Origin: Roseburia sp. 499
GTDB taxonomy: Bacteria; Bacillota; Clostridia; Lachnospirales; Lachnospiraceae
NCBI RefSeq assembly: GCF_001940225.2
Contig: NZ_CP135164.1
Coordinates: 62,001 to 126,000 of the forward strand
Reading direction: 5' to 3'
DNA length: 64,000 nucleotides
In this document: in pieces, positions 9,532-62,651 of the stretch
Layout of the letters: every line of letters begins with the position of its first letter
Numbering within the stretch: position 1 is the stretch's first letter
Notes under the pieces: generated by a model
What the model saw: only the letters and a program-made list of their open reading frames with translations
Databases searched by the model: none
Told to the model about the DNA's origin: nothing
Made by a program: the position numbers and the translations under genes

Positions 9532-10638
9532 ATGGAAATAAAAGAAGAAATCGGAAAAATAGATTTGAATCAAAATAATGATGCTAAGTTAGAGGGAAAA
9601 GAGATAGTTATTTTTGGAAGTGGAGTAAATGGCGCGTGGGTATATGAGCAATTAATGAAAAAGAAGAGTAAAATAATTTGTTTTTTGGATGATAAACATT
9701 TTGAGAAAAGAAATGAAGTTCCCGTAATGAATGAAAAGCAGTTGCAGGAGGCGGACTTAAATCTAGAAGAGATTATTGTTATTGTATCATTTTATGTAAA
9801 AAGTGAAGAAAAATATAATGAGATTAAAGAAAGGCTTCAGAAGATTGGATTCAGGGAAGAAAATATTGTACATTTTGTAGAAGCATTTATGGAGAGCTAT
9901 TTTGATAAAGAGCTATTGGTTTCGCAAGAAAAAGAAATAGAATTGGCTTATAGCAGATTAGAGGAGGAAGAAAGCAGGAGGGTATTTGAAAATTATATTA
10001 AGGCAATTGTCGGAGGAAATGCGGAAGAATTTTCAAAGCCGGTAAATGAGGAACAGTATTTTGATAAAGATATTATAAAGGATGTGAGGGAAGGAACATA
10101 TTTTGTAGATTGTGGAGCATATATAGGGGATACATTTGAGAGCTTTCAAAAACAGAAATTGAAATTAAATTATATTGGGTTCGAACCGGATATAAATAAT
10201 TTTAACATATTATCAGATAGAGTAAAATGTTGTGAGACAGAGTATCATCCGGTACTATTTCCTTGTGCTACTTCCAAGGAAAATGCTCTTGTTAGTTTTT
10301 CCTATTCGGAAGAGAAATCTGACAGCCCGGGAAGCGCTATCTGCGAAAGCGGAAATGTTACAGTGCCGGGGGTTGCTTTAGATACTGTGATTTCGGGACT
10401 TCCGATATCGTATATAAAAATGGATATTGAAGGTGCTGAATATGACAGCTTGCAGGGGGCAGAACAGATTATACGAAAATATCATCCTGATTTAGCAATC
10501 TGTACATATCATAAAACGGATGATATATGGCGTCTTATCAATTTGGTATATTCTTTTAATCATAACTATCAATTTTATTTGAGAAGTTATTATTTATTTA
10601 GTAGAGAAACGGTATTGTATGCAATAGAGAAAAAGTAG
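9532..10638 (+). CDS. Rossmann-module + FkbM-family methyltransferase
   Basis: 368 residues. Residues 22-130 form a PglD-N-like Rossmann module (EIVIFGSGVNGAWVYEQL, then LDDK and a closing LQKIGFREENI). The same kind of module starts the three SGNH-like proteins at 18485, 19688 and 23447. Residues about 180-368 are an FkbM-type SAM methyltransferase with DCGAYIGDT, GFEPD, and YIKMDIEGAEYDSL, the last being the family's characteristic motif. FkbM enzymes O-methylate sugars or related hydroxyls. GGAGG precedes the ATG. The gene sits between glycosyltransferases and the sugar-nucleotide cassette, so methylation of a flagellar-glycan sugar is inferred. There is no membrane segment. Confidence 0.85.
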   Translation: MEIKEEIGKIDLNQNNDAKLEGKEIVIFGSGVNGAWVYEQLMKKKSKIICFLDDKHFEKRNEVPVMNEKQLQEADLNLEEIIVIVSFYVKSEEKYNEIKERLQKIGFREENIVHFVEAFMESYFDKELLVSQEKEIELAYSRLEEEESRRVFENYIKAIVGGNAEEFSKPVNEEQYFDKDIIKDVREGTYFVDCGAYIGDTFESFQKQKLKLNYIGFEPDINNFNILSDRVKCCETEYHPVLFPCATSKENALVSFSYSEEKSDSPGSAICESGNVTVPGVALDTVISGLPISYIKMDIEGAEYDSLQGAEQIIRKYHPDLAICTYHKTDDIWRLINLVYSFNHNYQFYLRSYYLFSRETVLYAIEKK

Positions 10639-16640: not shown

Positions 16641-16666
16641 AGTACATGGATTGGGAGGAAAAAGAT

Positions 16667-17449
16667 ATGAAAGTAGTGATTTTGGCAGGAGGTTTGGGAA
16701 CAAGAATTAGTGAAGAAAGCCGAATTAAACCCAAACCGATGGTTGCAATTGGAGAAGCACCTATTTTATGGCATATTATGAAGTATTATTCTTCTTACGG
16801 ATTTGATGAATTCGTGATATGTTGCGGATATAAGGGATATGTAATAAAGGAGTATTTTGCAGATTATTATTTACATCGGTCTGATATCACTTTCGATTTT
16901 AAAAATGGAAATGAGATGATTGTTCATAATAATATTGCAGAACCCTGGAAAGTAACCCTGGTAGATACGGGGGAAAAGGCACAGACCGGTGCAAGAATAT
17001 ATCGAATACATAAATATGTAGGAAATGAACCATTTATGCTCACTTATGGCGATGGAGTAAGTGATGTGAATCTTGATGAGTTGTTAGAGTTCCATAAGAA
17101 AAATAAGCGAACGGTTACTATGACTGCAATCCAACCGGGAAGTCGATTTGGGGTTCTGGATTTTAATGAGGATGGTGCAGGTATTGACAAATTTGATGAA
17201 AAACCGCAAGAAGACGGTGCATGGATTAACGGTGGATTCATGGTGGTAGAACCTAAAGTGTTTCAGTATCTGCGAGATGAGGATGGACTGGTTTTTGAAA
17301 AAGAAGTTTTGAACAATCTGGCATTTGATGGAGAGTTAGCAGCATATAAGCATAATGGTTTCTGGCAGTGCATGGATACGATGAGAGATAAAGGGATGCT
17401 GGAAAAACTTTGGTATGCGGGAAATGCGCCATGGAAGAGATGGGAATAA
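16667..17449 (+). CDS. rfbF: Glucose-1-phosphate cytidylyltransferase
   Basis: About 260 residues from the ATG at 16667, preceded by GGGAGGA. It has the nucleotidyltransferase signature MKVVILAGGLGTRI, the IKPKPMVAIGEAPILWHIM loop, GDGVSDVNL metal site, ALQPGSRFGVL-like IQPGSRFGVLDF, and the INGGFMVVEP and HNGFWQCMDTMRD motifs that set RfbF apart from RmlA and GalU. The reaction is CTP plus glucose-1-phosphate to CDP-glucose. The usual next enzyme, CDP-glucose 4,6-dehydratase (RfbG), is not in the window. So either CDP-glucose is used as such or RfbG is elsewhere. Length matches the family. Confidence 0.9.
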   Translation: MKVVILAGGLGTRISEESRIKPKPMVAIGEAPILWHIMKYYSSYGFDEFVICCGYKGYVIKEYFADYYLHRSDITFDFKNGNEMIVHNNIAEPWKVTLVDTGEKAQTGARIYRIHKYVGNEPFMLTYGDGVSDVNLDELLEFHKKNKRTVTMTAIQPGSRFGVLDFNEDGAGIDKFDEKPQEDGAWINGGFMVVEPKVFQYLRDEDGLVFEKEVLNNLAFDGELAAYKHNGFWQCMDTMRDKGMLEKLWYAGNAPWKRWE

Positions 17450-17474: not shown

Positions 17475-18497
17475 ATGCAAGAAGAGAAAATAAAGCCGTC
17501 ATACAATACAGAGCGTGTGTGTCTAGGAAAAACGTTACCACTTGATACACCGTTCACCATAATGGCAGATATTAGTGATGTTTGTAATTTTAGATGCAAT
17601 TACTGTTTTAGAGGAATGGGGAAAAAGGAATTTTATTATGGAAAAAATAAATTGATGGAAGAAGACGTCTTTCATCGAATTGTGGATCAGGCGTTAGAAT
17701 TTAAAGGGCGTATTAAACGTTTTTCCTTGTCTCATAATGGAGAACCATTGGCACATCCTAAATTTGCGGAGTTTTTGGCATATGCAAAGGAAAGAAATGT
17801 AGCGGAATCCGTAGAAATACATACGAATGCTTCGTTGCTGAACGAAGAGTTAAGTACAAAGATTGCAGAAAGTAATATTGATAGAATTATTATTTCATTG
17901 CAAGGAATGAATACAAAGAAATATCAAGAGGTTTGTGGTGTTGCTATTGATTATGAGAAGTTTTATAACAATATTAAGTTTTTATATCAGATAAAAAAAG
18001 ATACGAAAATTTGCATTAAGGTAGTAGATGCTGCATTAGAAGAAGGGGATACTGAAAAATTTTATGAAAAATTTACACCTATCGCAGACCGGGTATATGT
18101 AGAAACGATAGTACCATTGTGGGATATTGAAGAAGAAAATGCAGCAATCAGAGAAACTAAAACATATAACAAATATGGTCGGCAGAATGAACGACAAAAA
18201 ATATGTCCATTAATGTTTTACACTATTAATGTCCTGCCAGATGGTACAGTCTTTCCATGTACTAATATTGAACCACCAATGGTTTTGGGAAATATAAAAG
18301 AAGTAACCCTAAAGGAGTGTTGGGAAAGTGAAAAGAGGAGACAATTTATCATTCATCAGTTAAAAGAAACCCGAAATAATAATGTGGTTTGTAGTAATTG
18401 CTATATTCCACAGAATACGGTATTAACGGAAAATGATATTTTAGATGGTTATGAAAATGAAATTTTAGAAAGAATTGAAAAGCGATGGAAGAAATAA
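17475..18497 (+). CDS. Radical SAM protein with SPASM-type C-terminus
   Basis: 340 residues. The cluster motif CNFRCNYC (Cys37, Cys41, Cys44) is the classical Cx3Cx2C that binds the [4Fe-4S] used to cleave SAM. After the partial TIM barrel comes a SPASM-like region with ICPLMFYTINVLPDG, VFPC and VCSNCY cysteines, likely holding an auxiliary iron-sulfur cluster. SPASM enzymes modify peptides or sugars, including dehydrogenation, epimerisation and carbohydrate redox. It lies 25 bases after rfbF and overlaps the next gene by 13. It may act on a sugar nucleotide or on glycosylated flagellin; the sequence does not settle this. No peptide precursor gene is visible nearby. Confidence 0.85.
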   Translation: MQEEKIKPSYNTERVCLGKTLPLDTPFTIMADISDVCNFRCNYCFRGMGKKEFYYGKNKLMEEDVFHRIVDQALEFKGRIKRFSLSHNGEPLAHPKFAEFLAYAKERNVAESVEIHTNASLLNEELSTKIAESNIDRIIISLQGMNTKKYQEVCGVAIDYEKFYNNIKFLYQIKKDTKICIKVVDAALEEGDTEKFYEKFTPIADRVYVETIVPLWDIEEENAAIRETKTYNKYGRQNERQKICPLMFYTINVLPDGTVFPCTNIEPPMVLGNIKEVTLKECWESEKRRQFIIHQLKETRNNNVVCSNCYIPQNTVLTENDILDGYENEILERIEKRWKK

Positions 18498-19675
18498 ACA
18501 GTAATAGATTAATAGAATGTGTGGCAAAAGAAAATTACGATAATTTCTGCCAGGCGGTTTTAAAAACTTCCCGGGCACGAAAGGACAAAAAAATTGTGAT
18601 ATTTGGTGCTGGGATTTTGGGATTACAATTTTGCTATACGTTAAAGAGTCTGGGAATACAAGAATTTGTTTTTTGCGATAATGATTCGAAAAAATGGGAA
18701 AAGAAAGTTGGAGATAAACTTGTTATTTCACCAAAGGAACTTGTGGATAACCAGGACGAATATTTCGTTTTTTTGGCAATAGAAAATTATTTCTCTTGCA
18801 TGCAACAGTTGGAACAAATGGGATATACTGAGGGAAAGGAATGGTATAATTTAACCAACTGTTCAGAAAGGAAATTAATAAAGCATTTTTCAGAAGACTG
18901 TGATGCAGATACTCTTATTTTGGGAGATTGTACATCAGTTAATATTTCAGTTACAGATGAAATGAAGAAATCTATAGCAGATTTGTTGTATCAGAAAAAC
19001 AAGGTAAAAGTTTTAGGCATGAATGGAATATACATGCGTTTGTATTATAATATTTTTTTGATGAATTTGTGCAAAATGTCGTCATTAAAGAAAACGTTAA
19101 TTTTGTTAGATTTAAGTATTTTTTATGGGAAATACCATTTGTTTTCGAAAAATCAGCATGTTGAGGTGGTTAAAGCTTTGCAAAATATTTCAGAGATTGA
19201 TACTGAAGAGGCAAAAGAGTTTGCAGAGATTGTGGAAAACAGAAGTGAAAACTCAATAATAGATATAGGAACTTCACCTAACAGAGAAGATAATCTTTCG
19301 GAGCAGAGGATTGAACAGGAACGCCGCATACATATGAAACTGAATTATTTGTATAGGTTACAGGAGGATTCAGAAAGCATACAATATTTGGATAAAATGA
19401 TAGAAAAGTGTGTGCGAGAAGAAATAGAAAATATATATGTAATTATGCCGGTAAATTATGAAATGGGTGAACAATATTTTGGAGATGTATTTTATCAAAA
19501 ATATGAAGCAATAAGAGATATAGTGATAAAGCATATCGCAGAGAGAAAAGGAAAAACTCTAGATTTGAGTTATGTTTTAAAAAAGGATGATTTTATTTGT
19601 TTACGTTCTACTAATGAGGGAATTCGAGAGCAGGGAAGAAAAAAAATAGTTACACTGATACAGGAGATACTATAG
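18485..19675 (+). CDS. Rossmann + SGNH-like protein, paralogue A
   Basis: 396 residues. Residues 30-125 form a PglD-N-like Rossmann module (IVIFGAGILG, FCDNDSKKWE, ISPKEL). From about 142 a second domain starts with LILGDCTS (Gly147, Asp148, Cys149), which looks like block I of SGNH/DltD-type hydrolases with Cys at the nucleophile position. It continues with VLGMNGIYMRL, KYHLFSKNQH at 216-225, MPVNY at 321-325, and ends DLSYVL then NEGIREQGRKK. The last resembles the SGNH block V region but has no DxxH. Function unknown. Paralogues lie at 19688 and 23447, and a carrier-protein and adenylation pair follows, suggesting acyl or aminoacyl transfer to sugars. The ATG overlaps the radical SAM gene by 13 bases. 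Confidence 0.65.
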   Translation: MEEINSNRLIECVAKENYDNFCQAVLKTSRARKDKKIVIFGAGILGLQFCYTLKSLGIQEFVFCDNDSKKWEKKVGDKLVISPKELVDNQDEYFVFLAIENYFSCMQQLEQMGYTEGKEWYNLTNCSERKLIKHFSEDCDADTLILGDCTSVNISVTDEMKKSIADLLYQKNKVKVLGMNGIYMRLYYNIFLMNLCKMSSLKKTLILLDLSIFYGKYHLFSKNQHVEVVKALQNISEIDTEEAKEFAEIVENRSENSIIDIGTSPNREDNLSEQRIEQERRIHMKLNYLYRLQEDSESIQYLDKMIEKCVREEIENIYVIMPVNYEMGEQYFGDVFYQKYEAIRDIVIKHIAERKGKTLDLSYVLKKDDFICLRSTNEGIREQGRKKIVTLIQEIL

Positions 19676-19687
19676 GAGGAGAATGAA

Positions 19688-20902
19688 TTGAAGGAGTCTA
19701 TTAATTTTGCGTGGCCTGTAACATCTACAAATCGAGAAGATTATGAGGCGTTTTGTGAATGGCTGGATAGGAAGAAAGAGATTGTTGAGAAGAAACAGAT
19801 TGCAATATGGGGTGCTGGGATTAGAGGAACAGAATTTTCGCTTTTTTTTAGAAAAAGAAATTACCATGATATCATTTTTGTTGATAATAACGAACAAAAG
19901 TGGGGAGGGGTGATAGATGAATTTCCTATTATATCTCCTGAAGAGTTGTATCAAAAAATGATGAAAGAAAAGGCAAAAATTTTGATTTCAGCAGAAGCGA
20001 GCACAGACATAGAAAAACAATTACAGGAAAAAGGTTATATAAAAGACAAGGACTTTTTTACAATAAAGTCTTGTTTATATGAAAAATATGTAAATGAATT
20101 TGAAAGAGAATATAAAGGTGAAATTCTTATTATGGGAGATTGTGAATTCTCTAAAATTTCTATGAAAGATATAGATTTAACTAATTTGGGAGAGATGATA
20201 AAAGCAAAGTGCGGTGAAGATAGAACAAAAGTATTAGCGATGCACGGAATGGGATTACGGGCACATTACAATGTATTAAATGCTCAGATTAGTAACGGAA
20301 TGAAACCTAAGGTATTGCTAGTTATGGTGAATTTGGATACATTGACCGGGAAACATCATTTATTGCCTAGATCTCAGCATGTAGAGTTACTACGGATGGT
20401 CTATAATAAAACAGAGAATAGAGATGAAGAATTTGAAGAATATATGAGGGTTGTGGAAGAAAGAAGCAAAAACATACAAGTGGAGTTTTTTACACATAAG
20501 TTTCAGACAGAAGGGGAAAAAGCAAAGGAAATAAAAGCCAAGAATTATTTTAGAATTAACTATATGTATAACTTAAATGTAGAGACGGAAGGACTTGTGT
20601 ATCTTCGCAAAATTTTTGAAAAAGCGAGAGAGGAAAATATAGACGTGATTCCTTTTGTGCCACCGGTAAATTATACTGTAGGAACAAAGTTATTAGGGGA
20701 AAAATTTGAAGTAAAGTACAAACAGAATTTGGAAAAAATCAGACAGATTGTAGAAGAGAATAAGAAGGAATTGTTGGACTTGAGTTATTGTCTTGGAGTA
20801 GATATGTTTGCAGAGCCTGAAACACCGGATGAGACAGCAAATGAAGTTGGTAGAAGAAGAATGACTGAATTATTATATGAGGCTATTAGGAAGCTGGTTT
20901 AA
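19688..20902 (+). CDS. Rossmann + SGNH-like protein, paralogue B
   Basis: 404 residues from a TTG at 19688; TAGGAGGAG precedes it by six bases, whereas the ATG at 19683 hits a stop at its third codon. Same plan as paralogue A: Rossmann module (IAIWGAGIRG, FVDNNEQKWGG, ISPEEL), then LIMGDCEFS (Gly150, Asp151, Cys152), AMHGMGLRAHYN, GKHHLLPRSQH at 221-231, PPVNY near 313, DLSYCL, and NEVGRRR near the end. Invariant between copies are the GDC tripeptide, the H-L-x-x-x-Q-H segment, PVNY and DLSY. I do not recognise a named family. A hydrolase or transferase acting on esters of a sugar is an inference from the SGNH-like layout. Confidence 0.62.
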   Translation: MKESINFAWPVTSTNREDYEAFCEWLDRKKEIVEKKQIAIWGAGIRGTEFSLFFRKRNYHDIIFVDNNEQKWGGVIDEFPIISPEELYQKMMKEKAKILISAEASTDIEKQLQEKGYIKDKDFFTIKSCLYEKYVNEFEREYKGEILIMGDCEFSKISMKDIDLTNLGEMIKAKCGEDRTKVLAMHGMGLRAHYNVLNAQISNGMKPKVLLVMVNLDTLTGKHHLLPRSQHVELLRMVYNKTENRDEEFEEYMRVVEERSKNIQVEFFTHKFQTEGEKAKEIKAKNYFRINYMYNLNVETEGLVYLRKIFEKAREENIDVIPFVPPVNYTVGTKLLGEKFEVKYKQNLEKIRQIVEENKKELLDLSYCLGVDMFAEPETPDETANEVGRRRMTELLYEAIRKLV

Positions 20903-20931
20903 AAGGAATGGGATGAAAGGGAGGGATGTAT

Positions 20932-21888
20932 ATGGAAATAAAGATTAGTGTAATCATGTTAACATATAATAGAGAGAAACTGGTACAGAGAGCAATAGAA
21001 TCTGTTTTAAATCAGACATATAAAAATATTGAATTTATAATAGTAGATAATGGTTCAGAAGATAAGAGTGGGGAAGTTGTAGAGTATTATGCAAAAATGG
21101 ACAAAAGAATTAAACCATATCATATTAGTAAGTGTTGTATTGGCGCTGGAAGAAATTTTGGATTGAGACAGGCAACTGGAGAGTATGTAGCTTTTATCGA
21201 TGATGATGATTGGATGTATGAAGATATGCTGGAATACTTGGTAGATTTTGTTAAAGATTATAACGCTGATATTGTATTGTGTGGTTCTCAGAAAGAAATT
21301 GAAGGTAAGATTTTCGATAACTGTTGTTTTGATAAAGTGTTAGTTATGAATAGTGGGGAGAGTGTTATTGAATTATTGAAAAGGAAGAAGTACAATGCAG
21401 CATATCCAACCAAATTGCTAAAAAAGGAATTGTTTGATCAGATTCCGTTCCGTGAAGATGGAAAATATGATGATATTACTGTTGTGTATAAACATTTTGC
21501 ATTGGCAAAATGTGTGGTAGCAGGTGGAGAACCAAAATATTGTTTTAGAAGACATGAAAGCAATAATTCCGCGTTTACTACAAACGACTTGTTATTGACA
21601 GAGGACCAGTTAGAAGAATATTTGGCGGCTTTTCGAGAAAGAACGGAATGGCTTAGTGCCAAATTGCCATCTATAGCAGATTATGCACAATATAGCGAAT
21701 GGTCATATATGATTTCTATGTGTAACAAGATTGAGAAGAATCAGTTGAGGAGTTGTTACCAGGTATTAAAGAGAATAAAGAAAATTTTGATTGTAAATTA
21801 TGATGTATTTTTTTATTCAGAATATATACAGGATTTTGAAAAAGAGTGGATGAAAAAATATATTGCACCAGAGAGGAATAGAAAATGA
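20932..21888 (+). CDS. Family 2 glycosyltransferase
   Basis: About 318 residues from the ATG at 20932, which best fits the AAGGGAGGG site; the ATG at 20926 abuts it. GT-A motifs: ISVIMLTYNREKLV, FIIVDNGSEDKS, GAGRNFGLRQATGEYVAF, and a FIDDDDW metal motif near 88. The C-terminal third is helical. Its stop overlaps the next start (ATGA at 21885-21888), so the two GT2 enzymes are coupled. Substrate unknown. Confidence 0.85.
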   Translation: MEIKISVIMLTYNREKLVQRAIESVLNQTYKNIEFIIVDNGSEDKSGEVVEYYAKMDKRIKPYHISKCCIGAGRNFGLRQATGEYVAFIDDDDWMYEDMLEYLVDFVKDYNADIVLCGSQKEIEGKIFDNCCFDKVLVMNSGESVIELLKRKKYNAAYPTKLLKKELFDQIPFREDGKYDDITVVYKHFALAKCVVAGGEPKYCFRRHESNNSAFTTNDLLLTEDQLEEYLAAFRERTEWLSAKLPSIADYAQYSEWSYMISMCNKIEKNQLRSCYQVLKRIKKILIVNYDVFFYSEYIQDFEKEWMKKYIAPERNRK

Positions 21889-23423
21889 GTACATTGGAAA
21901 AACCACTAATATCAATAATCACCAGGGCGTATAATGTCGAAGATTATATAGGAGAGTGTGCAGAAAGCGTATTAAGCCAGACGTATGAAAATTTTGAATG
22001 GATTGTTTTGGAGAATGGTTCCACAGATAATACAGGGATTATATTGGAAATGTACGCAAAGAAAGATAAACGAATTCGTTTGTTTGTAAATAGAAAGAAT
22101 TATAATAAAATAGAACCGAGTCGGGAAGGAGAATATAATTATTTAGATTTATTGAAGAAGAGCAAGGGAAAATATGTAACAGAGCTAGACAGTGATGATT
22201 TTTTGCATAGGGATTATTTGAAAGCTTTGTATGAAGCGACTGGTGGGGAAGAGATAGATATTGTTGCAGCTGGATCGGTGCAGTTTTTTAGTGATAATCC
22301 GCATCAAATAAGTAATATTGTTGTACCAAAAGCCTTTTCTGACAAAAATATTAACGAGTTGGGAAATAGTATTGATGATTTTTATAATGTATTCAGACCG
22401 GTATGGGGAAAGATAATTTTAAGGGACTTTTATGTACAAAATTTAGATTATATTTATGATAGACCTTCTTATATATCGATCGGAGGAGACACCTATGTAT
22501 GTCTTCGGATATTACAGGTTGCAAAGAGTTGTGTTTGTATAGACAAGCCTTTATATTTTTATAGAGTCAGAAATAATTCGATAACAAGGACGAGTTATTA
22601 TAAAGATAGATATTTAAGTTATGATGCAATTTTTTTTGAAGGTAACCGCCTTTTAAAAATTTGGGAGAAAAGCACCCAGGCCAATTTTGAGAAATTGAGC
22701 ATTATACATTTGGGAGGCTTAGAAATAGATTTGAAAATGATTTCAAATGTAGAAGGATTATTATTAAAAGATAGACTAGAGTATATTGAAAATTTGTTAC
22801 AAGATAAGGTATATAGGGAATATATAGGCGTATTTTCTAATGATATTAAAGTTATGTGGGAACACAAAATTCATGCGGGATTAGAAAAGATTTACAATAT
22901 TTCCACAAAAGAAAGCATGCAGGAAAAGACACAACTTTTGTTTTATAAATATAATTTTAGTCAGTGTTTTATATCTAAAAAGCTTATTTTTGAAAAAAAG
23001 AATAATAAATACGATATGATGCTTTATATTATTGCAAGTATATCGGAAAAGAATACTGTTGCGCGTGATAACGAATTGGTAAATTTCTGTATTAAATATT
23101 TGCTGGGGGAAAATTGCACATCAATTTTGGATGCAAGGAGAATTATAGAACAGCATACAAAAACAGAAAAACGGGAATATGACTTGAAAATAAAGATGAA
23201 CGAGTTATTGTCAAAGGGTGCATATGATGAAGTGGAAAAAATACTAGAAACTCTTGAGGAAACGATGAGGTTGGATTGTGATGTTTTGTTTTCAAGAGCA
23301 TGTTGTTGTTACGCAAGGGGTGATGTAAAAAATACAGTGGTATTGTTGACAACTGCAAATGAATTATATCCAGAGGAAGAAGTAATACAGGAAAACTTAA
23401 ATAATATATTGGAAGAACTATGA
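21885..23423 (+). CDS. GT2 glycosyltransferase with long helical/TPR-like tail
   Basis: 512 residues. Residues 5-230 are a GT-A family 2 domain: ISIITRAYNVEDYI, WIVLENGSTDNT, YVTELDSDDFLH. From about 250 on the protein is helical and ends with a TPR-like pair (LLSKGAYDEVEKILETL, ACCCYARGDVKNTVVLL). This puts the repeat at the opposite end from the TPR leaders of the 5441, 7031 and 29327 proteins. Such repeats may hold the protein acceptor. It starts within the stop of the upstream GT2. No membrane segment. Confidence 0.8.
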   Translation: MSTLEKPLISIITRAYNVEDYIGECAESVLSQTYENFEWIVLENGSTDNTGIILEMYAKKDKRIRLFVNRKNYNKIEPSREGEYNYLDLLKKSKGKYVTELDSDDFLHRDYLKALYEATGGEEIDIVAAGSVQFFSDNPHQISNIVVPKAFSDKNINELGNSIDDFYNVFRPVWGKIILRDFYVQNLDYIYDRPSYISIGGDTYVCLRILQVAKSCVCIDKPLYFYRVRNNSITRTSYYKDRYLSYDAIFFEGNRLLKIWEKSTQANFEKLSIIHLGGLEIDLKMISNVEGLLLKDRLEYIENLLQDKVYREYIGVFSNDIKVMWEHKIHAGLEKIYNISTKESMQEKTQLLFYKYNFSQCFISKKLIFEKKNNKYDMMLYIIASISEKNTVARDNELVNFCIKYLLGENCTSILDARRIIEQHTKTEKREYDLKIKMNELLSKGAYDEVEKILETLEETMRLDCDVLFSRACCCYARGDVKNTVVLLTTANELYPEEEVIQENLNNILEEL

Positions 23424-23446
23424 TTTTTTTGTAAAATAAAGGAGAA

Positions 23447-24679
23447 ATGAACTGGAAGGAGAGCATTTGTGTGTGGGCATTAAATACAATTGAAAAAAGT
23501 ACATATTTATCTTTTGAAAGACAATTAAAGATTGTATTAAATAAAGCAAGTAATAAAAAAATTGCTATCTGGGGGGCGAGCGTTCGAGGAATCATTGCAG
23601 GAATGATTCTTGAGGATTTAGGGGAAAATGAATTTATATATATAGATAACGATAGGAAAAAGCAGGGACAAAGTTTGTCAGGACATGTGATAATGTCATT
23701 TGAAAAGATTGACATAGAATCGACGTATATCGTGATATCTATGGAATATCAGGATGAAGTCAGAAATTTGCTTTTTGATTTAAGTTTTAAAGAGAAAGAA
23801 GATTTTTTCAGTTTAGTATCTTCGGATTATAATGATTTGATGAATGAGTTGAAGCAAAAATATGATAATGAAGTTCTTGTTGTAGGAGCAAGTATATTGC
23901 ATACACTGCCTATAGACGACAGAAATAGTGAAGATTTATCTGAGATGATAAAAAGAAAATATCAGAAAGCAATTAAAATTTTAGGTATGACATGTTTGGG
24001 AATGCGAAATATGTATTATTTGATAAGAACAGAGATGTATCAGAATCCAAATTTGAGAAATTTGATTATAATAGTGAGTTGGGAAACCCTTACATCGTTT
24101 CATCACATTTTACCCCGTACCCAAAAACCAGAACTGATAAAAAAATTAAAAGAATATGTATTGGAACTAGGAGACATACAGACAGAAAAAGAATTGTGCA
24201 TAGGGTATGACATAGCGAAGGAGAGATCAATAGATTATAATTTAGAAAATAAGTATAGTCCTGCACGATTAGATAGCGGTCTGAGACATAATGAAGTATT
24301 AAAATCATACTTAGATATTAGTATAGCAGAAAAGTTGGACAAAAAGTGTGAGGAAATTCAGTATCTGGATAAGATAATTGAGTGGGCAGAGCAGAACAAT
24401 ATAAAAATATCTCTAGTTATAGAACCAATGAATATGATATTAGCTAAAGAAGTATATGGGAAAGGGTTTGAGAAGATTTATGCAGAAAAGTGTGATGACT
24501 TAAAAGAATTGTTAATGAAATATCATGTACCACTTTTTGATGCAAGCAGTTTACTAAGCAAAGAAGAATTCTCAGCAGTAAATGTAGTAAATGAGGCTAT
24601 TTATACAACTGGAAGAAAAAGGTTTGCGGGTTATATAATAGAGAAAATAAAGGAATTAGGTAACCAAAGTGTAAAATAG
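23447..24679 (+). CDS. Rossmann + SGNH-like protein, paralogue C
   Basis: 410 residues from the ATG at 23447 after AAAGGAG. The Rossmann module (IAIWGASVRG, YIDNDRKKQG) is followed by LVVGASILH (Gly147, Ala148, Ser149), where paralogues A and B have GDC. So this copy keeps a serine at the presumed nucleophile position but loses the Asp. The HHILPRTQKPEL segment at 219-230, EPMNM near 327, and a C-terminal NEAIYTTGRKR match the others in place. It is the most divergent of the three. It is followed by a promoter and the carrier-protein/adenylation pair. Function unknown; SGNH-like assignment is by motif order only. Confidence 0.6.
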   Translation: MNWKESICVWALNTIEKSTYLSFERQLKIVLNKASNKKIAIWGASVRGIIAGMILEDLGENEFIYIDNDRKKQGQSLSGHVIMSFEKIDIESTYIVISMEYQDEVRNLLFDLSFKEKEDFFSLVSSDYNDLMNELKQKYDNEVLVVGASILHTLPIDDRNSEDLSEMIKRKYQKAIKILGMTCLGMRNMYYLIRTEMYQNPNLRNLIIIVSWETLTSFHHILPRTQKPELIKKLKEYVLELGDIQTEKELCIGYDIAKERSIDYNLENKYSPARLDSGLRHNEVLKSYLDISIAEKLDKKCEEIQYLDKIIEWAEQNNIKISLVIEPMNMILAKEVYGKGFEKIYAEKCDDLKELLMKYHVPLFDASSLLSKEEFSAVNVVNEAIYTTGRKRFAGYIIEKIKELGNQSVK

Positions 24680-24692
24680 TGTAATTGAGTAT

Positions 24693-24721
24693 TTGTTAAA
24701 TAGTGCGGAATTATATATAAA
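24693..24721 (+). promoter_or_regulatory. Candidate sigma-A promoter for carrier protein / adenylation pair
   Basis: TTGTTA at 24693-24698 and TATAAA at 24716-24721 with 17 bases between. This 151-bp gap is the longest within the 14.2-36.7 kb run. The predicted leader contains an inverted repeat GTTACTT / AAGTAAC (24726-24732 and 24751-24757) not followed by a T run, so it is not a terminator. Confidence 0.45.
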
Positions 24722-24830
24722 CAAAGTTACTTTTAGGGATCAAACAAAAGAAGTAACCTATGGACGGATAGACAAGCAATGTGTAATGTAAAATATAGTA
24801 TTATAAAAAGAGATAGAGGAGGATATAAAA

Positions 24831-25055
24831 ATGAAGGAAGAAATATTAGCAATGTTAAAGGATATAAATCCTTACGTGGATATTAACGAACAAACAAATT
24901 TATTAGAAGAAGATATTTTGGATTCTATGGGACTTTTACTTTTGATAACAGAATTAGAAGAGAAATATAATGTAGAAGTCCCATTAGATGATTTAAAATT
25001 AGAAGATTTTGAAAATTTGAATAGTATAATAGAATTTGTAAAAAGCTTAATTTGA
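24831..25055 (+). CDS. DltC-like acyl/aminoacyl carrier protein
   Basis: 74 residues. An acidic four-helix carrier protein with the phosphopantetheine attachment motif DILDSMG; Ser32 is the expected 4'-phosphopantetheine site. The size and the 'E-x-x-I-L-D-S-M/F-G' context are close to DltC (D-alanyl carrier) and to stand-alone peptidyl carriers, more than to the AcpP of fatty-acid synthesis, which has DSLD. GAGGAGG gives a strong start. It lies 11 bases before the adenylating enzyme that should load it. As apo-protein it needs a phosphopantetheinyl transferase, not in the window. Confidence 0.88.
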   Translation: MKEEILAMLKDINPYVDINEQTNLLEEDILDSMGLLLLITELEEKYNVEVPLDDLKLEDFENLNSIIEFVKSLI

Positions 25056-25065
25056 GGTAAATGAT

Positions 25066-26589
25066 ATGATAACAAATGTGGTGCAGTATCTGGATAGACA
25101 GCTAAGAGAGCAAAAAGATAAAGTGGCAGTAGCAGAGGAAAAAGTAGAGTTAACTTTTGAGGAGATACATTTTGGAGCAACAAATATAGCGCAGCACATT
25201 CATACAGAGCGCCTGAGGTATTTTAATAAGCCAATTATTGTGTTTTGCACAAAAAGTGTAATGGAATATGTGGCACTCATGGGAGTTTTGTATAGTGGAA
25301 ATTATTACGTGCCACTAGATGTAAAAATGCCAAAAGAGAGATTGAAACTTATTATCGGATTATTAGAGGCGGAGATAGCTATTACTACGTCAAATTTAGT
25401 GTCGTTATTACAGGAAACAGGGTTTGTAGGAAAAATAATTTTGCTGGAAAAAGAAGTATGTGAAAGAATACCAAAGGGGAGTGTGGAAAAATGGAGCCAG
25501 AATACTATAGACACAGATCCGGCATATGTTCTATTTACTTCTGGATCTACAGGGATTCCCAAGGGAGTGGTTGTTAGCCATAGAGCGATTATCGATTATA
25601 TTGAGTGGCAGTGTGAACGTTTTCAATTTGATAAAACATCTGTGCTGGGAAATCAGGCGCCTTTTTATTTTGATGCGTCGATGCCGGATATTTATACTCC
25701 GCTATGTTCAGGAGCAACATTACAGATTATTCCTGAAATGTTGTTTTTACTACCAAACAAATTAATTGATTATATAAACGAAAAGAAAATAAACACGTTA
25801 ATATGGGTGCCATCCGCTTTGATGATGTTGACAAATAGAGATTATTTTGCACAAAAAAGCATAGAAGAATTACGTCTCGTCATGTTTTGTGGTGAGGTTA
25901 TGCCTAATAAACATTTAAATATATGGAGGCGTTATTATCCAAATGCGAAATTTGTGAATTTATATGGACCAACAGAAGCCGCGTACGCATGTACTTATTA
26001 TGAAGTGGATAGAAAGTTTACAGATGAAGAGCCACTTCCAATAGGAAAGCCGTGCGAAAATACAGATATTATTGTTTTGAATGAAAATAATCAGCGTGTG
26101 CAAAAAAACGAGGAAGGAGAGTTGTGTATAAGGGGAAGTTGTCTTGCAAATGGATATTATAATAACAGCGTTAAGACAGAGGAAGCATTTACAATAAATC
26201 CATTAAATAATCTTTATGAGGAAAGAATATATCGTACGGGAGATATTGTTAGATATAATGAATATATGGAATTAGAGTATGTTGGTAGAAGAGATTTTCA
26301 AATAAAACATATGGGATATCGAATAGAGTTAGGAGAAATCGAAACTGCAGCATATGGGATGGAAGAAATGAGACAGTGTTGTGCAATATATGATAATGTA
26401 GAAAACCAAATTGTATTATATTGTGTTGTCGAAAAAGAGAAAACAGAAAAAGATATATTTGCATTTTTGAAGGGGAAAATACCTAAATATATGTTGCCAG
26501 GGAAAATTTTATTGGAAAGTGAGCTTCCGTTAAATGCAAATGGAAAAATTGATAGGTTACTGTTGAAAACTAAAGCGCAGGAAAAATGA
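25066..26589 (+). CDS. DltA-like amino-acid adenylating enzyme (carrier-protein ligase)
   Basis: 507 residues, a complete stand-alone adenylation domain: A3 LFTSGSTGIPKG at 156-167, A4 FDAS at 202-205, A5 YGPTE at 300-304, A7 YRTGD at 389-393, and catalytic Lys494 in NGKIDR. Asp203 matches the Asp that binds the substrate amino group, so an amino acid is the expected substrate. FCGE at 274-277 places Cys275 72 residues after Asp203, the same interval as Asp197 and Cys269 that I recall for Bacillus cereus DltA, favouring D-alanine or another small amino acid. The reaction would be ATP-dependent loading onto the neighbouring carrier. No DltB-type membrane acyltransferase is present, so the acceptor is probably cytosolic. 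Confidence 0.85.
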   Translation: MITNVVQYLDRQLREQKDKVAVAEEKVELTFEEIHFGATNIAQHIHTERLRYFNKPIIVFCTKSVMEYVALMGVLYSGNYYVPLDVKMPKERLKLIIGLLEAEIAITTSNLVSLLQETGFVGKIILLEKEVCERIPKGSVEKWSQNTIDTDPAYVLFTSGSTGIPKGVVVSHRAIIDYIEWQCERFQFDKTSVLGNQAPFYFDASMPDIYTPLCSGATLQIIPEMLFLLPNKLIDYINEKKINTLIWVPSALMMLTNRDYFAQKSIEELRLVMFCGEVMPNKHLNIWRRYYPNAKFVNLYGPTEAAYACTYYEVDRKFTDEEPLPIGKPCENTDIIVLNENNQRVQKNEEGELCIRGSCLANGYYNNSVKTEEAFTINPLNNLYEERIYRTGDIVRYNEYMELEYVGRRDFQIKHMGYRIELGEIETAAYGMEEMRQCCAIYDNVENQIVLYCVVEKEKTEKDIFAFLKGKIPKYMLPGKILLESELPLNANGKIDRLLLKTKAQEK

Positions 26590-36687: not shown

Positions 36688-36728
36688 TAAAAACGGATAT
36701 TGGCTCATTGAGCGAATATCCGTTTTTT
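36688..36728 (+). terminator. Bidirectional rho-independent terminator
   Basis: AAAACGGATATT pairs with AATATCCGTTTT across a short GCTC/GAGC-containing loop. It has A-runs on the left and T-runs on the right, so it can end both the plus-strand island and the converging FliD-like gene, whose stop (36727-36729) lies at its edge. Confidence 0.88.
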
Positions 36729-38022
36729 AACAATATCGATCCATCATCATACCTGAATAAATAGAAGTAATATATGGAGATACCAAGGTTTTATCAGGAT
36801 TTTTATAAACCACTACTACCTTATCTACATATTTCATCGGATCAAGAGAAGCATTCGTTGCTTTTTCGTTTAAAAGATTCTTAAAATCATTTAATACAGA
36901 AAAGCTTTCATCAGGAGTTTCTGTATCAATGGCATCTGCCAAAAGAGCCTTGTCCACAGAAATTTCTCCATGTGAATCTACCATAAGCCCTAAAGCTTCT
37001 AAATCATTTTGCAGTATAAAGGCAGCACTGCTCATGTCGTGGAACAATCGTGCACTCTGATGTTGCGATTCAGAGTACTTATCTGCTGTTTCAATAATTC
37101 CGTTATAAGAATCAACCAATATTTGAATATTGTCTGCAATAGCATCTACATTTGCTTTAAATCCAATCGTAGCAGGATTTCCTTCTTCGCTGATGCTGTG
37201 CAAAGTTAATTCAAAAGTATTATTAATACTAAAAGTATTTGTGAAGGAAGAACGTTCCTCTCCGTTCAGAAGAAATTCTGCATTTGCTGACGGCTGAGAA
37301 ATGTGATCGATACCTAGCACATTGAGAGCTGTCATGGAGTTATGATTTCCCTGTGGAGTAATATTAAAAAGGTATTCTTCTCCTAAATTGCGTCCGGTAT
37401 TGCCGGATTCAATTCGAATGGCACTTTTTCCTTGTTCATCTTCGATTACGGAACCTTGTAAATTAATGCCTGCATTGGTGATTAAATTTGCAATCTTTTG
37501 CTGTACATCATAATTGCTGTCAGCAGGCGCTACATTAAACTGAAATTCATAGGCCGCAGAATTGGTTTCCAAATCAAATGTATAGGTATCCGGTCTTAAA
37601 TCCAGTCGACCTTTATCCAAAAAAGTACCAAGATTAATTTGCGGTTGAGCTAACTGCCGTACTTCGATGTCGAAACTATCTATATTTTCTGCCTGTTTAG
37701 ATGTTCCTATATAGTTAGCAGTAACAATATCTTCCTGAGTGGAAAAAGCAATTTTCTTTTGGAAAGCTTTGCTGATGTCATCGTCATCTGAAAGTGAAGC
37801 CACTACATTCTGGATAGTGCGAGCGCCTTCTTTGATATCGATGGCAAATTTTTGAACATCCCCCATATTCTGGAACTTGTACAAAGGGGATTCTTTATTG
37901 ATTTTTACGATTGTATTATAGATGTTACGCAATTCGCTTTTCTTATGCGTATCATAGCGGGATGCTGATTTAGTGGCATAAGTGCTTAGATAATAGCCGT
38001 AAGCAGTATCTATTGCAGCCAT
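36727..38022 (-). CDS. FliD-like flagellar filament cap / hook-associated protein
   Basis: 431 residues, minus strand, ATG at 38020-38022 with AAAGGAGGGG. It has FliD-like landmarks: the DIEVRQLAQPQ segment at 118-128 (FliD: VxQLAxAQ), repeated beta-rich D2/D3-like stretches, and a C-terminal block reading FSINNTFELTLHSI, IGFKANVDAIADNIQILVDSYNGII, typical of FliD domain D1. It is extracellular when assembled; no signal peptide is expected, because export is through the flagellar type III system. The usual C-terminal coiled-coil end is short and closes SIYSGMMMDRYC, so this may be an accessory FliD-like protein rather than the cap itself. A sigma-28-type promoter upstream supports late-flagellar expression. 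Confidence 0.68.
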   Translation of the reverse strand: MAAIDTAYGYYLSTYATKSASRYDTHKKSELRNIYNTIVKINKESPLYKFQNMGDVQKFAIDIKEGARTIQNVVASLSDDDDISKAFQKKIAFSTQEDIVTANYIGTSKQAENIDSFDIEVRQLAQPQINLGTFLDKGRLDLRPDTYTFDLETNSAAYEFQFNVAPADSNYDVQQKIANLITNAGINLQGSVIEDEQGKSAIRIESGNTGRNLGEEYLFNITPQGNHNSMTALNVLGIDHISQPSANAEFLLNGEERSSFTNTFSINNTFELTLHSISEEGNPATIGFKANVDAIADNIQILVDSYNGIIETADKYSESQHQSARLFHDMSSAAFILQNDLEALGLMVDSHGEISVDKALLADAIDTETPDESFSVLNDFKNLLNEKATNASLDPMKYVDKVVVVYKNPDKTLVSPYITSIYSGMMMDRYC

Positions 38023-38374: not shown

Positions 38375-38524
38375 GTGCGCACAAATATTACATTGGCATG
38401 TACAGAATGTAAACAACGTAATTACAACATGACAAAAGATAAGAAAGCTCATCCGGACAGAATGGAAACAAAGAAATATTGTAGATTCTGTAAGACACAT
38501 ACATTACACAAAGAAACAAAGTAA
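38375..38524 (+). CDS. rpmG: 50S ribosomal protein L33
   Basis: 49 residues from a GTG at 38375, with GGAGGTGG nine bases upstream. The four cysteines CTEC (9-12) and CRFC (36-39) form the zinc ribbon, so this is the zinc-binding (C+) form of L33. It reads [12 protein letters not shown] and [17 protein letters not shown], typical of Firmicutes. It is the first gene of the rpmG-secE-nusG unit, 26 bases before secE. Confidence 0.95.
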
Positions 38525-38550
38525 TAGGATTGAGCAAAGGAAGTGACAAA

Positions 38551-38760
38551 ATGGGAGAAACCAATACAGAAAAAGCTCCAAAGACGAGCTGGTTCACCGG
38601 TCTTAAGGCTGAATTTTCCAAAATTATTTGGCCGGACAAAAAATCACTTATCAAACAAACAACAGCTGTTACGGTTGTTTCAATTATCTTAGGTCTAATT
38701 ATCGCTTTGATTGATGCAATTATCAAGTATGGCGTAACAGATATCCTGGTAAATTTATAG
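38551..38760 (+). CDS. secE: Preprotein translocase subunit SecE
   Basis: 69 residues from the ATG at 38551 (AAAGGAAG upstream); a TTG at 38530 would add seven residues. One transmembrane helix (about 34-60, VTVVSIILGLIIALIDAII) follows the amphipathic FSKIIWPDKKSLIKQT segment, which is the conserved SecE motif (W-P-x-x). It forms the SecYEG channel in the inner membrane. Usual position before nusG. Confidence 0.95.
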   Translation: MGETNTEKAPKTSWFTGLKAEFSKIIWPDKKSLIKQTTAVTVVSIILGLIIALIDAIIKYGVTDILVNL

Positions 38761-60897: not shown

Positions 60898-60917
60898 TAG
60901 GTAGGAGGATGAAGAGA

Positions 60918-62651
60918 ATGAAAGGGAAAAAGCGAGCCACGATTAAACGGTATATTATGTTGCCGGTGATTTTATTGGGAGTAGTATCCATTATTTCAAA
61001 TGCCTTGGCATTAGTAAATGTCCGAAAAGTAAATGGGAATGCATCTGAGATAGTAGATAATTATATGGCAGCCATTTCAGAGTTGGAATCAATTCAAAGA
61101 CAGGCAAAGGTACTTCATATTGAGGCATTGTCTCATATTATCGCGATAGATGCGAATACGATGATTGGGATTGTAGATGGTATACGTGAAGGAGAGACAA
61201 AACTGGATGAATGTCTGGATGCGTACGAGAAGTATGTTGGTGATGCAGATAAAAAGGCCTATGAAGAACTTGTATCAAATTTTGGTAATATGAAATACGC
61301 GATGGCAAACTTAATGGCGTATAGTGCAAATGGAGATAATGATGCAGCATATGCTTGCGCAAATAAGGACTTGGCATCCAGTGTGATGAATATGCAGAGT
61401 AATATTGAGGTGTTAGAAAAAAGTGCAAATAAGGGAGTTGAAGATGCCCGTAAGCAGCTTTCTGCGGTATATGCTACAGCGCTCATTAGTAGTGGAATCA
61501 CCATTAGTATTAGTGTTTTATCTATTTTAGGTGCGTTATATAGTGTGAATAAACGAGTAATTCGTCCAATTTCTTCAACGGAAAAAGAAATCACTCATAT
61601 TATTTCAGACATTGATAGAAGAGAAGGAGACTTGACCAAGCGAGTTACGATTTATTCAAATGATGAGATAGCAGCTTTGGGTAACGGAATTAATGTATTT
61701 ATGGAGAAACTTCAGAACATTTTCCGCATGATTACAAACAATTCACAGAAGATGGATGCTGTAGTAAATGAAGTTATGGATAGCGTAAAGACTTCTAATA
61801 ACAGTGTATCTGACTTGTCGGCGTTGACAGAGGAATTAGCGGCAACAATGGAAGAGGTTGCAGAGAATGCATCTGTAATCAATGCAAATGCCAGTGAAGT
61901 GCGTGACGAAGTAAATGAAATGGCAGACAAGACAAGTGAGATTAATAGGTATTCTATAGAAATGAAAGAGCATGCAGAAAACATGGAAAATACAGCACGC
62001 ACCAATATGGAGACTACAAGTATTAAGGTAAATGAGATTTTGAGTGTTTTGAGTCAGGCGATTGAGGATAGTAATAGTGTTAATCAGGTCAACAGTTTGA
62101 CAGATGACATTCTTAATATTGCAAGCCAGACGAATCTGTTGGCGTTGAATGCATCTATTGAGGCTGCTAGAGCCGGAGAAGCAGGAAAAGGCTTTGCGGT
62201 AGTTGCAGGAGAGATTAGCCAGTTGGCAGATGCAAGTAGGGAAGCTGCGAATAATATTCAAAAAATCAATGGTGTTGTAACGGCTGCGGTACATAATCTG
62301 GCCAACAATGCAAATGATTTAGTATCCTATATGAATGATTCTATTCTGCCAGAGTTTGAGTCATTTGTTGCTGCCGGAAGCGCTTATAAAAATAATGCCA
62401 CATATATTGAAAGTGTAATGGGAGATTTTGCAGTTAAGACAGATGCTTTGAAATCAGCAGTTGCAGAAATTGCAGGTTCTATCGATAGCATTACAACTGC
62501 AATCGATGAAGGTGTAAGTGGTGTTAATGGTGCAGCAGAAAATACGCAGGTATTAGTTGGAGATATGGACAACATTACCGGACATATGGATGAAAATCAG
62601 CAAATAGCGGGAGCTCTGAAACAGGAAACAGAAGTATTTGTAAAATTGTAA
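60918..62651 (+). CDS. Methyl-accepting chemotaxis protein
   Basis: 577 residues from the ATG at 60918, spaced nine bases from AGGAGG; the ATG at 60909 directly abuts it. First membrane helix about 10-30; extracellular region about 31-185, wholly helical, of four-helix-bundle type; second membrane helix about 190-212; HAMP about 213-270 ([13 protein letters not shown]). The signalling hairpin has [36 protein letters not shown], split here into the CheA/CheW contact tip. No C-terminal CheB/CheR tether. Paired with the sugar-binding lipoprotein, which may present its ligand to the helical sensor domain. Confidence 0.92.

Follow-up and report, generated by a model that had tools for sequence, protein, structure and literature searches.

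A soluble Dlt-like gene module in a flagellar island of Roseburia sp. 499: candidate cytosolic aminoacylation of a glycan precursor

Introduction

In the Dlt system of teichoic-acid D-alanylation (DltA, DltC, DltB, DltX and DltD), the amino acid moves along a relay. The carrier DltC gives D-Ala to DltB, from where it passes to a tyrosine of DltX and then to a serine of DltD, according to the portion of the source used here (PMC12148441). We describe a gene module of Roseburia sp. 499 (Lachnospiraceae) that resembles this system. It lies in a stretch of 64,000 nucleotides (contig NZ_CP135164.1, positions 62,001 to 126,000 of the forward strand), which we call the window; all positions below count from its first letter. 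Like the Dlt system, the module encodes an amino-acid ligase, a carrier and an SGNH protein. Unlike the Dlt system, it has no adjacent membrane acyltransferase (MBOAT) and no membrane anchor. Its SGNH domain is of a cysteine type without the histidine and is joined to an extra Rossmann domain, its ligase and acyl carrier protein (ACP) score under the DltA and DltC cut-offs, and its setting is flagellar instead of teichoic-acid related.

Four other described systems come close in single aspects. For the viosamine island of Pseudomonas syringae (VioB, VioR, VioS and an ACP), transfer of an ACP-linked acyl group to a nucleotide sugar for the flagellin glycan has been proposed. The group, however, is 3-hydroxybutyryl from a fatty-acid type of route, and the accessible portion of that paper names neither an amino-acid ligase nor a radical SAM partner (PMC3927599). 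Group II flagellar islands of Aeromonas (ACP, ketoreductase, AMP-dependent synthetase) also combine an AMP-forming synthetase with an ACP in a flagellin island, but are interpreted as fatty-acid synthesis in the excerpted text (PMC7874193). The acyl-ACP:aminoglycoside transferase BtrH of butirosin synthesis is a cysteine enzyme that moves a carrier-bound amino-acid derivative onto a sugar amine; unlike the proteins described here, it has a papain-like fold and serves an antibiotic pathway (PMC10318531). Finally, the type A flagellin modification of Clostridioides difficile puts an amino acid (N-methyl-threonine) on the flagellin glycan, but through a phosphate linkage and with no ligase or ACP among its genes, as far as the available part of that source describes them (PMC4441256). 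An SGNH transferase is not named for any of the four in these partial texts.

The statement in the initial annotation that no system of this layout had been described is therefore too strong, because ACP-dependent acylation in P. syringae and transfer by BtrH are both published. Judged by analogy, the idea of a carrier-based (amino)acylation of a flagellin sugar is not without precedent. The module itself was not recognised in the open-licence literature on flagellin glycosylation, Dlt, DUF1574 and ACP-linked acylation, among the matches listed.

Results

The module is real, conserved, soluble and part of a flagellar island, and this conclusion is well supported. Its genes stand on the forward strand in the order glucose-1-phosphate cytidylyltransferase, radical SAM/SPASM enzyme, paralog A, paralog B, GT2a, GT2b, paralog C, ACP, ligase. 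The three paralogs share one layout, a Rossmann-like N-domain followed by an SGNH-like C-domain: A (18485..19675, 396 amino acids), B (19688..20902, 404 amino acids) and C (23447..24679, 410 amino acids). B is the core protein and the candidate aminoacyl transferase. The ACP (24831..25055; PF00550 8.4e-8) is DltC-like and carries its pantetheine site, Ser32, in an Asp-Ser motif; the DltA-like adenylating ligase follows at 25066..26589 (PF00501 4.3e-66). The open reading frames (ORFs) of A, B, C, ACP and ligase were checked and are intact within 18485-26589, where the initial annotation had placed them. Ligase and carrier were said to sit immediately after the three paralogs, which is true of C but not of A and B, as two GT2 glycosyltransferases stand between B and C. 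These are GT2a (20926..21888; PF00535 1.8e-36) and GT2b (21885..23423; PF00535 5.3e-25), the latter with a long C-terminal part. The radical SAM/SPASM enzyme, a core member, occupies 17475..18497 (PF04055 3.1e-19, PF13186 1.4e-13).

A B-type scan of a collection of genome contigs returned 39 loci. We excluded the 21 that match only the N-domain of B. In the other 18 the match to B extends past the N-domain, or the locus is cut within B; two cut loci (L080, L081) were also excluded, and the remaining L064-L079 form, together with the window, our set of 17 loci. As a scan query, the joint alignment of A, B and C types offered no conserved stretch. Fifteen related loci (L064-L078) extend beyond B, and every one of them has ligase and ACP within the fetched stretch. 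The sixteenth, L079, stops just past B, and its genome (G012) has a B fragment, a ligase and an ACP at another contig end (L026). Hence the predicted co-occurrence of the parts in relatives holds: the same families stand together in 15 further loci, and partly in a 16th that is cut by a contig end.

Clustering the ORFs of the 17 loci recovered the SGNH family in 17, the radical SAM enzyme and the ligase in 16 each, and the ACP in 13 by blast or 16 by hidden Markov model (HMM). GT2a follows with 13 loci, FkbM with 12, the cytidylyltransferase with 11, GT2b with 10 and a PS_pyruv-like family with 7; all other families occur in at most 4. By these counts, B is the one candidate for acyl transfer that recurs widely. 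Taxa with scan loci include Lachnospiraceae, Vallitalea, Marinisporobacter, Oceanirhabdus, a Faecalibacterium metagenome-assembled genome and, on a cut contig, one from Spirochaetaceae. Full-length Rossmann-SGNH proteins were found in at least 3 of 397 family genomes and at least 1 of 391 genomes of the class, that of Roseburia sp. 499; these searches, like that for the ligase below, scored the best 3-4 candidates per genome, and their counts are lower bounds. A genome of the same genus (G027; L023, L024) carries a compact version, radical SAM-A-C-B-ACP-ligase-GT2a-GT2b, between FliD and genes matching rplA and rpoB of the window. The chromosomal site appears to be the same, from the FliD side to the ribosomal-protein side, and the island is far shorter, almost the module alone.

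The absence of membrane proteins, as initially annotated, was confirmed. Transmembrane (TM) segments were counted by simple hydropathy. The ligase of L078 itself scores two 'segments', so two is the noise level. At least two TM-like segments occur in just two ORFs of the window, 38388-38726 and 60909-62651, both outside the island. No multi-pass membrane protein was detected in the island and no TM-like segment in the window's A, B and C. ORFs with three or more such segments are absent from the window and from 15 of the 16 related stretches; L064 has two of them, beyond FliD. Blast found no MBOAT in the window or in the 16 stretches. Thus neither a multi-pass ORF in the island nor a DltB-like gene beside the module was found in the loci examined.

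What kind of proteins are the paralogs? In sequence, A shares 29% and C 27% identity with B. A-type proteins were found in the window, L064 and L073. The N-domain matches 3nkl (1.6e-8) and Rex (6.4e-6); 7 of the 26 family members match PglD_N and 9 match Methyltransf_14. These matches suggest a Rossmann domain of the kind that binds nucleoside diphosphate-sugars or NAD. The same domain opens the FkbM enzymes: hhalign between the paralog N-domain and the N-part of FkbM enzymes at the same loci gives 98.6%. Perhaps it is a common recognition domain of both groups, as judged from this similarity. The window's own FkbM methyltransferase (9532-10638) and the FkbM genes of related loci share the Rossmann N-domain of the three paralogs. 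A profile termed A2 matched at E<=1e-10 in at least 51 of the 397 family genomes, 48 of them over the N-domain only.

The C-domain appears to be a remote SGNH domain of the DUF1574-like branch. Aligned as a family of 26 members, it matches four DUF1574-like proteins (hhalign 96.9%, 237 columns) and the first 14 membrane SGNH proteins from the ligase neighbourhoods described below (96.6%, 230 columns). Six unrelated island families, taken as control, reach at most 1.7%, and smaller comparison sets (two DltD, three DUF1574-like proteins) gave the same picture. The B-type rows alone score 96.2% over 191 columns against the membrane SGNH proteins, with an overall B-type range of 95-96%. A-type (94.0%, 60 columns) is weaker and shorter than B-type, and the C-domain of C-type alone reaches 87.7% over 86 columns. 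Pfam gave only weak matches for the window paralogs. DUF1574 (PF07611) is matched by 5 of the 26 family members, at best with 1.3e-5, and B of the window stays below the cut-off (0.028). DltD (PF04914) is matched by 4 of 26 (best 0.0044) and by none of A, B and C of the window up to E=0.1.

The catalytic residues depart from the classical pattern. Block I is recognisable as GDC in A and B and as GAS in C. At the place of the nucleophile, Cys stands in 19/19 B-type and 3/3 A-type proteins and Ser/Thr/Ser in the three C-type proteins; alignments and conservation place it in the window's B at Cys152 (codon 20141..20143). The block-V DxxH histidine is found in none of the 26 members. Its place is taken by Thr in 13 of 19 B-type proteins, including Thr383 of B (codon 20834..20836, by alignment), and the last 35 columns of the alignment contain only two histidines (L064, L070), both off the block-V place. 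B-type proteins have another histidine, His186 beside block II, in 18 of 19 cases. No A- or C-type protein has it; the window's A carries Asn there.

A classical Ser-His SGNH esterase is ruled out by the cysteine at block I and the histidine missing from 26/26. The SGNH/DltD-like reading of the paralogs, including their motif order, thus stands in part. It is borne out by profiles at the superfamily level and by block I, but not for the catalytic pair, and classical SGNH catalysis has to be given up, since A and B types carry Cys instead of Ser and the block-V histidine is lost. Instead, the conservation makes it plausible that B is a cysteine-dependent transferase. A and C would then be auxiliary copies of B, and C is perhaps a non-catalytic partner.

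The ligase and the carrier are related to DltA and DltC without falling in these families. With 361 bits the ligase passes the amino-acid adenylation model TIGR01733 (cut-off 317.4), and it stays below both DltA models (TIGR01734, 325.4 vs 559.85; PRK04813, 345.5 vs 476 bits). A control DltA from a dlt operon (L114) scored 549.1 bits, just under the first cut-off, and 571.3, above the second. Similarly, the ACP stays below the DltC cut-offs (TIGR01688, 33.1 vs 52.35; PRK05087, 43.3 vs 68 bits), and a control DltC scored 71.3 and 70.1 bits. The DltB and DltD of L114 and L115 were labelled by operon place and a DltD search. Among PDB sequence matches of the ligase, adenylation domains of nonribosomal peptide synthetases (NRPS) come first, ahead of DltA. 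The notion that ligase and ACP are specific to the island proved wrong, as the ligase kind (E<=1e-100) is present in at least 170 of 397 family genomes.

We chose 40 Lachnospiraceae ligase neighbourhoods from the matches listed. Twenty rank mostly at the top (excluding the module loci of G325 and G167), and the other 20 were picked at intervals further down; the set is not a random sample. An MBOAT lies within 6 kb of the ligase in 29 of the 40 (L146-L148, L151-L159, L162-L164, L170-L174, L177-L180, L184-L188). In 27 of these 29 there is also a DUF1574/DltD-like SGNH protein, which in the 40 neighbourhoods never occurs without an MBOAT. One MBOAT match was confirmed by Pfam (L151, PF03062 8e-15), and an HMM found the ACP in 20/20 of L145-L164, the neighbourhoods checked for it. 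The SGNH proteins nearly always have one TM-like segment (that of L146 has none, and that of L188 is in two pieces). None of the 40 neighbourhoods contains a Rossmann-SGNH protein.

To our knowledge, these ligase-ACP-MBOAT-SGNH operons are not known as a named system. They resemble the module in ligases matching the same profile, in the ACP and the SGNH protein, in part in the GDC motif (nucleophile Ser in 15 and Cys in 11 of 26 aligned proteins), and in a near-identical pocket code, DNLWLCLDAK (L146-L148) vs DNLWLCLDVK (7/17 module loci). What sets them apart is the MBOAT, a TM anchor in most cases, and the block-V histidine (26/26 aligned). Beside ligases of the same kind we also observed formyltransferase-like, GNAT and aminoglycoside N-acetyltransferase-like genes (L148:8977-9834, L146:6332-7216, L152:8864-9673, L150:8839-9639).

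In a ligase tree that took in the first 20 of the 40 neighbourhoods, 15 of the 17 module ligases form one clade (support 98/99). L071 and L078 are placed elsewhere; the L078 ligase has a long branch and its position is unsure. With DltA as outgroup, MBOAT-linked ligases fall on more than one side of the module clade. That the ligase belongs with this island and not with a DltB elsewhere is thus partly upheld: most module ligases are a clade of their own, but a DltB-like gene accompanies the ligase type in 29/40 neighbourhoods. Because membrane operons combine the same ligase kind with MBOAT and SGNH, and because of the module ligase clade, the module looks like a soluble Dlt offshoot that lost MBOAT and anchor and gained a Rossmann domain. 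Its putative derivation from Dlt is supported by profile, neighbourhood and tree evidence.

The pocket of the ligase changes between loci, with B kept as partner. Position numbers for pocket residues are our assumed assignments. The amino-group Asp is kept in 17/17 module ligases and the equivalent of DltA Cys269 in 13/17. The ligase of the window keeps both, has Tyr at the place of Val301 and Trp at the place of a DltA Ser. Roles of Asp197, Cys269 and Val301 in the D-Ala pocket of DltA are given in the parts of the two sources cited here (PMC4176424, PMC8972799). The 17 module loci have seven different pocket codes, among them DAPWMCLYAK (window and two relatives) and DNLWLCLDVK (7/17); two DltA have DLMSLCTV(A/C)K. 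Since the pocket outside Asp and Cys differs from that of DltA, D-Ala is only one possibility. We thus rejected D-Ala as a given, and it is not supported as the probable amino acid either, with a pocket that is unlike DltA and varies between loci.

The codes of L071 and L078 are identical to those of ligases from other settings. In L071 (4310-5539) a pyridoxal phosphate (PLP) decarboxylase of the ornithine, diaminopimelate or arginine kind comes after the ligase, as in two scanned membrane operons (L162:9073-10263, L163:6122-7318). The ligases linked to it have Ser at 301 and a D-V-K-W code (DVKWISVCNK in L071, DVKWLSLCNK in L162 and L163), which suggests that they use a different, perhaps decarboxylated amino acid. 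On the plainest reading, a membrane Dlt-like system gave rise to the soluble module, which later swapped ligases and kept B; the direction is our inference.

The surroundings read as a flagellin-glycosylation island, and its initial description as a protein-glycan island was right: the window is preceded at 2.7-5.4 kb by flagellin-like ORFs, the neighbours are glycosyltransferases, and a FliD-like flagellar cap protein marks the downstream edge (36727..38022, reverse strand; PF07195 1.4e-8 over part of the protein), followed by nusG, rplK and rplA at the island end. Of the 16 related stretches, six gave a blast match to flagellin or FliD (L064, L065, L069, L072, L074, L078). Just before the radical SAM gene, at 16646..17449, lies the glucose-1-phosphate cytidylyltransferase of CDP-glucose synthesis (TIGR02623 388 bits, cut-off 300.25). 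It is also present in L065, L067-L069, L072, L074, L075 and L077-L079, and often adjoins GT2a. No CDP-glucose 4,6-dehydratase scored above the cut-off in the own genome (best match 93.6 bits vs 278.45), and on this ground a CDP-3,6-dideoxyhexose route was rejected there. CDP-glucose may be used directly, without the dehydratase step.

Discussion

How could such a module work? The ligase would use ATP to activate an alpha-amino acid, which need not be D-Ala, and load it on the phosphopantetheine of the ACP, as the families suggest. By thioester exchange, B would accept the aminoacyl group on Cys152 and pass it, in the cytosol, to an amine or a hydroxyl, either on a sugar nucleotide or on the growing flagellin glycan. 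We propose that a sugar amine takes the aminoacyl group without help of the lost block-V histidine, and no membrane needs to be crossed. A nucleotide sugar is suggested as acceptor by the Rossmann domain and by the CDP-glucose synthase found in 11/17 loci. Tailoring of the sugar, or of the amino acid on the carrier, is the probable role of the radical SAM/SPASM and FkbM enzymes, and attachment of the sugar to flagellin would fall to the GT2 enzymes.

That a glycan precursor is aminoacylated in the cytosol is likely. For the overall model, a soluble, MBOAT-free Dlt-like offshoot that moves a carrier-bound amino acid to a cytosolic sugar via Cys152 of B, we see the chances as evenly balanced. 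A more detailed version is possible and offered tentatively. Here, B would be a cytosolic cysteine aminoacyltransferase of DltD-like descent that hands the group from a Cys152 thioester to a nucleotide-bound (perhaps CDP-linked) flagellin sugar, with His186 or the acceptor amine in the role of the block-V histidine. A little-noticed membrane branch of Lachnospiraceae (ligase-ACP-MBOAT-SGNH, with Ser- or Cys-type DUF1574-like proteins) would exist alongside.

Several results count against this model. B may be inactive as a transferase, because the block-V histidine is absent in 26/26. The link of the C-domain to known SGNH enzymes is also limited: against all 26 membrane SGNH proteins its alignment shrinks to 94 columns (96.2%), three DltD give only 29.4% over 59 columns, the match to PDB 6o93 has E=0.22, and one GDSL-type SGNH protein gives 0.3%. 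Support in the ligase tree is weak (80/70) at the point where the module clade meets its nearest neighbours. Six of the 17 loci yielded no cytidylyltransferase, and contig ends truncate several of these. Co-occurrence, moreover, is no proof of a shared reaction. Finally, two of the 40 ligase neighbourhoods (L145:7019-10051, L149:4977-8824) have ligase and ACP beside a radical SAM enzyme 25-26% identical to that of the window, and neither SGNH nor MBOAT was found up to 6 kb from the ligase. Hence B is not an obligatory partner. The radical SAM enzyme of these two loci may act on the carrier-bound amino acid.

The same observations feed the alternative that survives best. The Rossmann-SGNH proteins could be pseudo-enzymes that bind a glycan, a nucleotide sugar or the carrier; the radical SAM enzyme would modify the carrier-bound aminoacyl group, and another island enzyme (glycosyltransferase-like or a strain-specific acyltransferase) would transfer it. 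The lost histidine, the C-type that lacks the cysteine as well, the degenerate look of A and C, and the SGNH-free loci L145 and L149 all fit. However, no other acyltransferase-like family recurs widely over the 17 loci. A family of 280-303 amino acids occurs in only 3 loci, and the two members tested have no Pfam match. In addition, Cys152 in 19/19 and His186 in 18/19 B-type proteins would be needless in a pure scaffold. Thus we consider this alternative rather unlikely.

A second alternative returns to the membrane: the ACP would feed an MBOAT encoded elsewhere, and the modification would be extracellular. The genome indeed has one MBOAT, 31% identical to the MBOAT of a Dlt-like operon and next to a one-TM protein of 299 amino acids, and on the G325 contig (L063) an MBOAT-like gene lies about 22 kb from the module. 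However, the genome's MBOAT lies at 2736 kb and the only close ligase at 87 kb of a 3382-kb contig, far apart from each other; blast detected neither an SGNH protein nor a ligase in the 17 kb around this MBOAT, and A, B and C have no TM-like segment. Flagellin glycosylation is moreover cytosolic in known systems, which makes an extracellular route improbable.

Most improbable is that the genes form a small pathway of nonribosomal type, making a secreted metabolite and present in the island by chance: NRPS adenylation domains are the ligase's best PDB matches, but its recurrent neighbours are glycosyltransferase, cytidylyltransferase, FkbM and radical SAM families, the identified families in three or more loci (part of the ORFs being annotated) include no condensation, thioesterase or transporter, and the adjacency to flagellin or FliD recurs.

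If the model of cytosolic aminoacyl transfer by B is true, then the logic of Dlt (ligase, carrier, SGNH transferase) is bound neither to the membrane nor to teichoic acid. DUF1574 is listed without a known activity in the portion of a 2022 review used here (PMC9487903); the model would provide DUF1574-like SGNH proteins with a testable role. A further prediction would be that Clostridia of the gut and elsewhere have aminoacylated flagellin glycans; the flagellins of these bacteria are immune targets.

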